Of a stretch of DNA of 64,000 bases, positions 50,269-53,689 are shown in pieces. Each line of letters begins with the position of its first letter. The first letter of the stretch is position 1. The notes under the pieces were generated by a model, which was not told where the DNA came from, did not search any database, and saw only the letters and a program-made list of their open reading frames with translations. The position numbers were made by a program, and so were the translations under genes. Source of the stretch: an uncultured Mucilaginibacter sp. Its GTDB lineage: Bacteria > Bacteroidota > Bacteroidia > Sphingobacteriales > Sphingobacteriaceae. The stretch lies in the NCBI RefSeq assembly GCF_903893715.1, contig NZ_CAITNG010000107.1:1-64000 (forward strand), in the 5' to 3' direction.

Positions 50269-51456
50269 TCAGGAAAAGTACGCAATGGCTTCGATGATGA
50301 CATTGCAGGCATGCCTTATTTGCTCTTTGGTGATGATGAGGGGGGGGGCCAGACGCATGGCATCGCTGCAATGCAGGAACCAATCGGTGATGATGCCGTT
50401 TTCGATACAGCGGTCGATCACTTTTTTGTTGAGGTCGAAACTTTCGAGTTGGATGGCGAGCCAGAGGCCTTTGCCACGCACTTCGCTGATGGCCGGGTGG
50501 AGCAATAGTTGACGGAACAAGGCTTCCTTTTCGGCAACGCTTTCGATCAGGTTTTCATCCAATAATACACCAAGCGCGGCCATGCCGGCGGCGCAACATA
50601 CCGGGTGCCCGCCGAATGTGGTGATATGGCCAAGTATCGGGTTTTCAGTAAAGGCGGACATGATGGTGTTGGAAGAAATAAAGGCACCGAGCGGCATTCC
50701 GCCACCAAGGGCTTTGGCTAAAACCAACATATCGGGCACGATGCCGAAATGCTCAAAAGCGAAAAGTTTACCCGTGCGGCCAAAGGCTACCTGTATCTCG
50801 TCTAATATCAATAAAGTACCTGTTTCGGTGCAGCGCCGGCGGAGGGCCTGCATATAAGCTACATCAGGTACGCGTATGCCGGCTTCGCCTTGCATGGTTT
50901 CGACCAGTACACAGGCGGTTTCGGCGGTGATGAGGTCGAGGTCTGCTACCTCGTTAAACCTGATGAACGAAATGCCGGGTAATAAGGGGCGATAGGCTTG
51001 TTTATATTCCTCGTTGCCCATTACGCTGAGCGCGCCGTGGGTGCTACCGTGGTAGGAGTTTTTAAAGGCGATGATTTGGCTGCGGCCGTTATAGCGTTTG
51101 GCCAGTTTTAAGGCCCCTTCAATGGCTTCGGCGCCGGAGTTGGTAAAGTATACCGACTGTAGTTGTTGCGGTAGGAGTGCCGCCAGCTTTTGCGCGAAAA
51201 GCACCTGCGGGGCTTGCACGTATTCGCCGTAAACCATGAGGTGCATATATTTTTCGGCCTGTTGCTTTACGGCATCCACCACTTTGGGATGCGAATGGCC
51301 AATATTGCTTACGCCGATGCCCGAAATAAGGTCGAGGCTTGGTTTTCCTTCGGCGGTGTACAGGTAACAGCCTTCGGCCCGCTCGAACGCCAACAGGAGC
51401 GGAAAACGGGTAGTTTGGGCGTTATGGGTAAGGAACAGCTGCCGAAGGTTGGTCAT
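50269..51456 (-). CDS. Class III aminotransferase (acetylornithine/ornithine-type)
   Basis: A 395-residue PLP enzyme. PLP-binding features are TNSGAEAIEGALKLA (about 105-119), the YHGSTHGALS loop (about 135-144), the LDE of ILDEIQ (Asp219-Glu220) and Lys248 in VLAKALGGGMPLGA as the Schiff-base lysine. Length and motifs fit the acetylornithine/succinyldiaminopimelate/ornithine aminotransferase group. No arginine genes are adjacent, so the substrate is open. DapD in this window would feed a succinyl-DAP aminotransferase, but that link is speculative. Its promoter box overlaps the preceding gene's terminator. Confidence 0.88.
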   Translation of the reverse strand: MTNLRQLFLTHNAQTTRFPLLLAFERAEGCYLYTAEGKPSLDLISGIGVSNIGHSHPKVVDAVKQQAEKYMHLMVYGEYVQAPQVLFAQKLAALLPQQLQSVYFTNSGAEAIEGALKLAKRYNGRSQIIAFKNSYHGSTHGALSVMGNEEYKQAYRPLLPGISFIRFNEVADLDLITAETACVLVETMQGEAGIRVPDVAYMQALRRRCTETGTLLILDEIQVAFGRTGKLFAFEHFGIVPDMLVLAKALGGGMPLGAFISSNTIMSAFTENPILGHITTFGGHPVCCAAGMAALGVLLDENLIESVAEKEALFRQLLLHPAISEVRGKGLWLAIQLESFDLNKKVIDRCIENGIITDWFLHCSDAMRLAPPLIITKEQIRHACNVIIEAIAYFS

Positions 51457-52082: not shown

Positions 52083-53090
52083 CTAATTATTTTTTACCTG
52101 TTTGTTTGTATCCGCTTGCTGAGCGTTAAAATTATCAGGGTCAACGTTTTCTAATATAGTGGCGCTATCGCTGTTCAATTCCAAATAGTTTTCCAATTCA
52201 TCAGCCGGAACCTTTGATAAAGCTTTATGCAAATAACTGCGGTTATGTGTAGCAACCGGGTTGTTAAACTCGCTGATAAATATCGCAGTGCCCACAACCA
52301 GGGCAAAACATGCTGCCGACGCATATTTAAACGCGCTGGAAACAAACATTTTTACAATAATGCCCTGACGCTCCTGCCTGCTTGCCTGTTTAACCGGCAA
52401 TACATGCGATGTTTGCAACAGGATTTTGTTTTCCAGTTCGGCAAAGTAGCCATCGGGTACGGTAAATGCCTGTTCGGTATTCAACGCTTCTTCGATGGCG
52501 ATGCGGGCCTGTATATTTTGTTCCAGTTCGTTAAAGTAGCCTTCAGGTACAGTAAATGCCTGTTCGGTATTCAATGCTTGTTCGATGGCGATGCGGGCCT
52601 GTATGTTTTGTTCCAGTTCGTTAAAGTAGCCTTCAGGTACAGTAAATGCCTGCTCGGTATTCAATGCTTCTTCGATGGCGATGCGGGCATGTATATTTTG
52701 CTCCAGTTCGTTAAAGTAGCCTTCAGGTACGGTAAATTCCTGTTCGGTATTCAATGCTTCTTCTATGGCTATCCTCGATTGGATGTTTTGCGTCAAATCT
52801 TCAAAATAGTTTTCGGGTACTTTGAATGTATTTTCGACACTTAATCCGGCTTCTATAGCAACCCTCGCCTGTATGTTTTGCTCCAGTTCGTTAAAATAAT
52901 TAACCGGCACGATAAAGCCTTTATCGGCGGCATTTTGCGTTGCCTCCAATAGCTTAATATGCCCCATTAGCTGTGCTTCCATCTCACCGAAATAGTTTTG
53001 GGGCACGGCAAACGGGCTAACAGGGTTCACCTGTTTTAGCGTTGGGTACCCTTCAATCCATTTCATATCGTCTTCTTCCTTTTTCATCAC
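52083..53090 (-). CDS. Predicted membrane anti-sigma factor with tandem VPxxYFxxL repeats
   Basis: A 335-residue protein with one membrane helix at about 253-273. The N-terminal 250 residues, predicted cytoplasmic, contain seven copies of the motif VPxxYFxxLxxxI (valines at 29, 61, 91, 121, 151, 181 and 211). From residue 59 the spacing is exactly 30, and copies 4-6 are nearly identical. The C-terminal 60 residues would be periplasmic. It lies 41 nt after the ECF sigma gene, the place of an anti-sigma factor in Bacteroidota. A single F-x-VPxxYF motif is usual near the start of such proteins (from memory); the tandem expansion is unusual. Confidence 0.7.
   Translation of the reverse strand: MMKKEEDDMKWIEGYPTLKQVNPVSPFAVPQNYFGEMEAQLMGHIKLLEATQNAADKGFIVPVNYFNELEQNIQARVAIEAGLSVENTFKVPENYFEDLTQNIQSRIAIEEALNTEQEFTVPEGYFNELEQNIHARIAIEEALNTEQAFTVPEGYFNELEQNIQARIAIEQALNTEQAFTVPEGYFNELEQNIQARIAIEEALNTEQAFTVPDGYFAELENKILLQTSHVLPVKQASRQERQGIIVKMFVSSAFKYASAACFALVVGTAIFISEFNNPVATHNRSYLHKALSKVPADELENYLELNSDSATILENVDPDNFNAQQADTNKQVKNN
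52437..52916. repeat. 90-bp tandem repeats inside the anti-sigma-like gene
   Basis: In-frame 90-bp units encode the 30-residue repeats. The units between about 52467 and 52736 are nearly identical at the DNA level, including synonymous sites, pointing to recent unequal duplication. A coding repeat, not a CRISPR. Confidence 0.85.
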
Positions 53091-53131
53091 CTTATATAGA
53101 TGCTTTTTTTTACAAAAGGTTTAATCGTATT

Positions 53132-53689
53132 TTAATCTTCGGCCAATAAAAAAGCCTCTATCTTTTTAACTGCCAGGTGGAACGACGATTTAAGCGCGCC
53201 AACACTGGTTCCGAGCACTTCCGACATTTCTTCGTACTTCATGTCGTCGTAATATTTCATGTTAAACACCAACTTTTGCTTTTCGGGCAAGGTTAGCAAA
53301 GCTTTTTGAAGCTTCATTTGGGCCTTGTCGCCATCAAAGTAAGTGGAGTCGGCCAATGTTTCCGATAGTTCGTGCGATACATCATCAAACGATACATTAT
53401 TTTTTAACTTTTTACGATTTAAAAAGGTAATGCACTCGTTGGTGGCTATGCGGTACATCCAGGTGTACAATTGGGCGTCGCTGCGAAAGCCGGGCAGGTT
53501 TTTCCAAACTTTGATAAAAACATCCTGCACCAGGTCATCGGCATCGTCATGGTCTATTACCATGCGGCGTACGTGCCAATAAATTTTTTGCTGGTATTTT
53601 TTGAGCAACATGTTGAACGCCAAGTTCCTTGTTTTCTCGTCCTGGAATTTTTCCAGTATTTCTGCGTCTTCAACAACCGGGTTAGACAT
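53132..53689 (-). CDS. ECF-type RNA polymerase sigma factor
   Basis: A 185-residue sigma-70 family protein with only regions 2 and 4. Region 2 includes DDADDLVQDVFIKVWKNLPGFRSDAQLYTWMYRIATNECI. Region 4 includes ALLTLPEKQKLVFNMKYYDDMKYEEMSEVLGTSVGALKSSFHLAVKKI with its helix-turn-helix. It heads an operon with the VPxxYF-repeat membrane protein and a Spy-like protein, so it probably responds to an envelope signal and is held by that membrane protein. A near-consensus -7 box (TACTTTTA) lies upstream on the minus strand. Confidence 0.93.
   Translation of the reverse strand: MSNPVVEDAEILEKFQDEKTRNLAFNMLLKKYQQKIYWHVRRMVIDHDDADDLVQDVFIKVWKNLPGFRSDAQLYTWMYRIATNECITFLNRKKLKNNVSFDDVSHELSETLADSTYFDGDKAQMKLQKALLTLPEKQKLVFNMKYYDDMKYEEMSEVLGTSVGALKSSFHLAVKKIEAFLLAED

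Follow-up and report, generated by a model that had tools for sequence, protein, structure and literature searches.

A gene in the window (the whole stretch of 64,000 nucleotides analysed here, from an uncultured Mucilaginibacter sp.) encodes a protein in which seven units of a VPxxYF motif precede a single membrane helix. Gene context, together with an analogous operon of Phocaeicola vulgatus (CirY, CirZ and Spy), makes it very probable that this protein is the anti-sigma factor of the ECF sigma factor encoded next to it. The motif itself is a plausible sigma-binding element and the best candidate for one, because those members of the family that carry a single motif have almost nothing else recognisable in the cytosol. 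Tandem copying of this holding piece, to a number between one and eight according to species, suggests an evolvable ‘sponge’ for sigma. The account as a whole, a membrane anti-sigma built from a repeated sigma-gripping element and working in a self-damping envelope-stress circuit, is in our judgement on balance a probable one.

The features of the locus are collected in Table 1. The first-pass annotation had described seven VPxxYFxxLxxxI copies ahead of one membrane helix; the seven units and the single helix stand, but only six of the units match the motif strictly, unit 1 being degenerate (VPQNYFGEMEAQL). Counted from the F of FxVP, the units start at residues 27, 59, 89, 119, 149, 179 and 209, with a first spacing of 32 residues followed by five of exactly 30 (units 2–7), in agreement with the 30-residue recurrence from residue 59 that had been noted. 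The near-identity in DNA that had been reported for the central copies applies to units 4–6, which are 94–96% identical when compared as 81-nt units. On the same comparison unit 3 is 70–73% identical to units 4–6, unit 2 is 67–69% identical to units 3–6, and units 1 and 7 are 44–59% identical to the remaining units. Tandem Repeats Finder reports a 90-base array of 3.8 copies with a 93% match. A minor correction concerns the start codon: relatives conserve the ATG at 53087 and do not share the GTG at 53090.

Table 1. Features of the sigma, motif protein and Spy-like operon, in positions of the window
Feature	Position	Strand	Basis or remark
Secreted Spy/CpxP-like protein gene, 172 aa	51528..52046	minus	homologues downstream across loci
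Putative anti-sigma factor gene	52083..53090	minus	335 aa from GTG; array of seven VPxxYF units, then a single membrane helix
Single membrane helix	52266..52322	minus	sole hydrophobic stretch after the array, approximately residues 257–275
Unit 7	52386..52466	minus	membrane-proximal, diverged type; last-unit consensus F.VP..YF..Ln..IL.kT
Unit 6	52467..52556	minus	
Unit 5	52557..52646	minus	
Unit 4	52647..52736	minus	DNA identity to units 5 and 6, 94–95%
Unit 3	52737..52826	minus	
Unit 2	52827..52916	minus	
Unit 1	52917..53012	minus	degenerate; conserved leader in front
ECF-type promoter-like element TTAAACCtT-N14-ATCTA, between sigma and motif genes	53097..53124	minus	alignment and pattern counts
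ECF sigma factor gene, 185 aa	53132..53689	minus	Pfam Sigma70_r2 3.4e-18, Sigma70_r4_2 1.1e-14; NCBIfam sigma70-ECF 4.3e-30

Around the membrane helix of the window protein, four lysines or arginines lie in the 20 residues before it and three lie after it, and such residues are likewise more numerous before the helix than after it in 131 of 137 relatives; the repeats are therefore predicted to be cytoplasmic. About 60 residues follow the helix. Family and sequence searches gave no match between the window protein and any known anti-sigma domain. Matches to TPR_MalT, LarA_C, SbmC and a lamprey receptor were far below their cut-offs and lay on the array, and were rejected as artefacts of composition.

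The motif gene does, as had been annotated, follow an ECF sigma gene, which lies directly upstream. The sigma has Sigma70 regions 2 and 4 only, the make-up by which an ECF factor is recognised, and those of its orthologues that were modelled match the region 2 and region 4 structures of sigmaE. Neighbours were counted with sigma and Spy-like HMMs built from 60 of the 136 genus loci. A co-directional sigma gene directly upstream of the motif gene was found in 136/137 genus, 20/20 family, 37/40 class and 80/80 named loci, and a Spy-like homologue downstream of it in 137/137, 20/20, 38/40 and 80/80 loci, respectively. The operon order of sigma, motif protein and Spy-like protein thus recurs across the Bacteroidia. 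The Spy-like protein of the window has no clear Pfam match; 4 of 10 Spy-like relatives that were scanned matched Pfam LTXXQ or Metal_resist, below the gathering cut-off. At one locus (L193), which encodes a two-motif protein, the upstream ORF looks by eye like a membrane acyltransferase and not like a sigma factor, though the Spy-like gene is still downstream. In the window, the Spy-like gene is itself followed by a gene of about 400 codons that is aminotransferase-like by eye (50269–51456, minus strand). In many other loci the next ORF has a similar size, and at a distant single-motif locus (L201) it is again aminotransferase-like by eye.

An operon of the same order has been described in Phocaeicola vulgatus, where the ECF sigma CirY, the anti-sigma CirZ and Spy are encoded together and the sigma activates its own operon, including spy (PMC13114119). 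Deletion of cirZ derepresses cirY, spy and two neighbours, which supports the reading of the gene order here as that of an anti-sigma operon (PMC13114119). The two systems are likened by gene order, with the Spy-like gene directly downstream in each, and not by the sequence of CirZ; the accessible description of CirZ mentions no repeats (PMC13114119). Another likeness is to CnrY, the class II anti-sigma that works with CnrH, in its short cytosolic part, one membrane helix and small helical elements. The periplasmic partner of CnrY, CnrX, is of the Spy family, so that in both systems the partner gene is of the Spy/CpxP type. CnrY gave no sequence match to the motif protein in searches to E 1 and to E 10. 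It also differs in placing two different helices on one sigma, as described (PMC7406223), whereas the motif proteins carry as many as eight copies of one element.

The likeness to anti-sigma factors with the class I domain (ASDI; RseA, RsiW, ChrR) is that of a membrane anti-sigma adjoining an ECF sigma gene. The ASDI often carries Hx3Cx2C, whereas the window protein has no class I domain (ASDI, zf-HC2 or RseA_N) among its Pfam matches up to E 1 and no cysteine in its cytosolic part. With the Dma/Reo family the system shares a Bacteroidota ECF sigma and anti-sigma and a connection to envelope stress; Dma, however, is described as having a long periplasmic tether and a C-terminal outer-membrane barrel, in contrast to the short tail past the helix in the window protein. 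Judged by its sequence, then, the motif protein is neither a class I anti-sigma nor a member of the Dma/Reo type. One survey assigns an ASDI partner to 6% of Bacteroidetes ECFs, compared with 32% of all ECFs, and suggests that other anti-sigma classes may dominate in this phylum (PMC7406223). With a class I partner for only 6% of these ECFs, a family like the motif proteins is to be expected (PMC7406223). By marking a partner protein across the Bacteroidia in one to eight copies, the VPxxYF motif provides a concrete candidate for a non-class-I anti-sigma class, one accompanied by a natural series of copy numbers, a conserved putative promoter and a small predicted regulon. A search of the open-access literature turned up neither a repeat-built ECF anti-sigma nor the VPxxYF motif.

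Orthologues of the motif protein are present in 137 of 149 congeneric genomes (115 of the 117 good ones), in 292 of 301 genomes of the family, covering 20 of 22 genera, and in 248 of 250 genomes drawn at the order level. At the class level, a profile built from short members found matches in 119 of 197 genomes, a count that includes weak, uninspected matches. None of the four genomes (0/4) of one genus of this family, g9 (G156, G177, G191 and G200; 1.8–2.0 Mb), gave a match, and the system may have been lost there with genome reduction. In a second small-genome genus, g20, a match at G167:C1:127226-127768 is interrupted by one TAA stop within an open frame of 411 residues and is possibly a broken copy.

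The motif was matched 1343 times in 276 loci, against about one match expected in shuffled sequences. All counts quoted are from a matrix retrained on all sets, since a first, genus-trained matrix undercounted distant loci; the two agree on all 137 genus loci. Copies per protein range from one to eight. In the genus, 4, 5, 6, 7 and 8 copies occur in 25, 27, 57, 26 and 2 of the 137 loci, respectively, and every one of the 136 intact loci has at least four. The remaining locus, L059, lies at a contig end with no sigma gene, so its five units are a lower bound and it was excluded from the tree and rate tests. The 20 family loci have three to seven copies, the 39 class loci one to seven, and the 80 named loci also one to seven, 79 of these having at least three and the exception (L289) having one. 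For these counts L205, with no motif ORF, was excluded, and at L187 the 267-aa neighbour of the sigma ORF was taken as the motif protein. Relatives with one motif, which the first-pass annotation had mentioned, do exist: eight class loci and L289 score a single motif, although in one of the eight (L203) a degenerate second is visible by eye. Copy number also differs between species, and the opposite pattern that had been named in advance, the same number in every relative with units that have diverged, is not observed.

In the single-motif members the motif starts 13–36 residues after the farthest possible start, and 32–63 residues separate its start from the membrane helix. A conserved leader is also present before unit 1, yet in the single-motif protein of L212, with 15 residues before the motif, hardly any leader is left. 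In a distant locus, L199, the repeated stretch seems to take in the leader (APTL...K..F.VP..YF), with spacings of 36–48 residues, and the ancestral unit may thus have been leader plus motif.

A quick tree of the 136 genus loci, made from the sigma, the post-array tail and the Spy-like protein with the array excluded, requires at least 32 changes in copy number; a 74-row class-wide sigma tree, in which several long branches are weakly placed, requires a minimum of 38. The proportion of locus pairs that differ in copy number rises with distance, from 0/44 below 0.05 to 2/42 at 0.05–0.1, 9/69 at 0.1–0.2 and 189/346 at 0.2–0.4. Of two sister loci, L021 has seven units and L042 eight, the difference being a single unit in the middle block. 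For the two most similar units of each locus, DNA identity has a median of 0.72 and reaches at least 0.90 in 7 of 137 loci. From these comparisons, whole units are gained and lost over the course of species divergence and are not flipped quickly, so that the number is evolvable but is no fast switch. The rapid tuning by slippage that had been proposed is not sustained by the closest pairs, and fast slippage or phase variation is rejected at the time scale sampled, that between species. Polymerase slippage is in any case unlikely for units of 84–99 nt, and because of this unit length unequal recombination is the likelier source of change.

That a single anchored chain holds several sigma molecules, one per repeat, and that species set capacity or threshold by gain or loss of whole units between one and eight, is a reading we put forward tentatively. 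If several sigmas do bind one chain, then the stress response would be tuned by repeat number, and the series from single- to multi-motif proteins would form a separate, widespread class of anti-sigma and a part-answer to how Bacteroidota ECFs without a class I partner are controlled. To our knowledge, such a stoichiometry is not known for ECF anti-sigma factors. Counting against it, strong induction of the anti-sigma by sigma would make extra capacity per chain less obviously needed.

A somewhat stronger possibility, though still short of an even chance, is that each chain holds one sigma, which is wrapped in the manner of CnrY by at least two motifs (the first together with its leader, and the last, for instance), while the copies in between contribute avidity, rebinding or reach rather than stoichiometric capacity. 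The end units do differ from the rest: the first and the last each have their own conserved consensus, distinct from that of the middle units, and are closer to their orthologues (0.54 and 0.60, respectively) than to their neighbours (0.47 and 0.44), the middle units having a similarity of 0.70 to each other. Also in its favour are the minimum of four copies in the intact genus loci and of three in all named loci but L289, and the binding of sigma by two helices in class II CnrY (PMC7406223). Counting against it are the single-motif loci and the conservation of the middle copies, with all seven core positions kept in 92.5% of 362 middle units (137/137 last units and 70.6% of 136 first units).

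Direct indications of contact between sigma and the repeats were sought by modelling and by coevolution. AlphaFold2 models of read-through chains, joining the sigma of L218 to three units (46 rows, pLDDT 67.3) and that of L258 to its first two units (87 rows, pLDDT 69.9), were of low pTM (0.39 and 0.33, respectively). Both of these low-pTM models give every unit an extended segment and then a helix, and no repeat helix stands out; sigma regions 2 and 4 are recognisable but are not placed as in known complexes, with a two-domain rmsd of mostly 10–22 Å. Foldseek/VIA listed no anti-sigma chain for the repeats, its rows reaching to about model residue 190 and barely covering them. In mean-field DCA of 231 sigma/anti-sigma pairs (Neff 61–65), the top inter-protein z was 5.7 for the first unit against sigma (5.3–6.8 in four shuffles) and 4.9 for the last (4.4–5.5 in four shuffles); coupling was thus not above that of shuffled pairings, a result judged uninformative at an Neff of about 65. 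An arrangement in which the repeats bind another partner, such as core RNA polymerase, a protease adaptor or each other, and sigma is held elsewhere, for instance by the N-terminal leader, would agree with the failure of the low-pTM models and the coupling analysis to show a sigma contact, and with the conservation of the leader before unit 1. We consider it unlikely, because some single-motif relatives such as L212 possess so little leader and because no cytosolic element other than the motif is shared by all the proteins.

Selection on the individual copies was estimated from 34 disjoint close pairs with identical spacing. At the seven core positions pN/pS is 0.06 in first units, 0.04 in middle units and 0.02 in last units; at the other motif positions it is 0.42, 0.17 and 0.17, respectively. 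Because the core value is low in first, middle and last units alike, every copy is, on this sequence evidence, under purifying selection and kept as a working motif, which argues against the copies being neutral spacers. It is correspondingly improbable that copy number is neutral drift of tandem duplication, with one or few copies at work and the rest tolerated: the number does vary widely between species with no correlate among those tested, and the 7/137 loci with a unit pair of at least 90% identity indicate recent gain in some lineages, but the middle core is as constrained as that of the end units and the number is stable between close species.

The preferred account, a repeated sigma-gripping element on a membrane anchor, has a regulatory counterpart in the promoter-like element at the junction of the sigma and motif genes. 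This element is ungapped and near-invariant in 36 aligned loci. It is exact in 127 of the 136 genus loci, with one mismatch in eight and two in one, whereas shuffled junctions have at least three. When the pattern is relaxed, it is matched in 135/136 genus, 20/20 family, 23/37 class and 77/80 named loci, compared with about 1% of shuffled junctions. The sigma stop codon forms part of it in 18 of 20 family loci. The gap between the element and the conserved ATG is 9 nt, which would leave the transcript with almost no leader. It is unlike the Flavobacterium ECF-type promoter motif SM6, which as described has a CGT box (PMC9723704). The 300 nt or so upstream of the sigma gene has no consistent site, the best match having one mismatch in 8/136 loci and two in 15/136.

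The strict form of the site occurs 105 times in 60 genomes, against eight occurrences of the reversed pattern, and among 30 matches listed 22 precede the motif gene. Twenty-one sites away from the junction were inspected, 20 of them picked by hand and the other being that of L296, and so they are not a random sample. None of the 21 lies inside an ORF of over 150 aa, and 16 lie 21–98 nt upstream of genes whose products start like secreted or lipid-anchored proteins, with signal-peptide-like sequences. These genes encode outer-membrane barrels, SIMPL proteins (PF04402) and secreted HMA-domain proteins (PF00403), as well as a Spy-like protein and a small lipoprotein, both named by eye. The other five sites (L344–L347 and L349) are followed by genes for membrane proteins, by a long gap, by a 61-aa ORF or by no gene at all. 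In the genome of the window itself the only other strict site (L296:1501-1527, contig C73) lies 29 nt before a 226-aa outer-membrane beta-barrel gene (PF13568, 1.9e-15); only the strict form is informative in that genome, where the relaxed pattern has six sites against eight for the reversed control.

The constant place of the element in the operon points to the adjacent sigma as its reader, and the simplest reading is probably that of an envelope-stress regulon in which sigma drives its own antagonist and a chaperone. The predicted cytoplasmic part of the motif protein consists of repeats of one element of about 20 residues, an extended FxVP followed by a helix, YFxxLxxxIxxRI, that probably grips the sigma factor. 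Single-copy relatives would manage with one such element, and in the lineage of the window it would have been amplified to seven by gain of whole units, the extra copies most likely giving more sigma-binding capacity or avidity per membrane anchor. Envelope stress would release sigma from the motif protein, and the released sigma would transcribe the motif protein and the Spy-like chaperone from the junction promoter, together with outer-membrane and periplasmic genes elsewhere. Since the antagonist is itself sigma-driven, the response would damp itself.

The 5' end of the motif gene shows a further peculiarity. Synonymous change is low there and rises along the gene, from 0.11 in the leader to 0.18 in unit 1, 0.26 in unit 2, 0.40 in the middle units and 0.44 in the last, the low end corresponding to 52827–53090 in the window and its equivalent in relatives. 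Thirds of the sigma gene give 0.27, 0.38 and 0.37. In 32 of 34 pairs, synonymous change in unit 1 is below the mean of the other units, and this suggests a constraint on DNA or RNA at the start of the motif gene that extends beyond the junction promoter.
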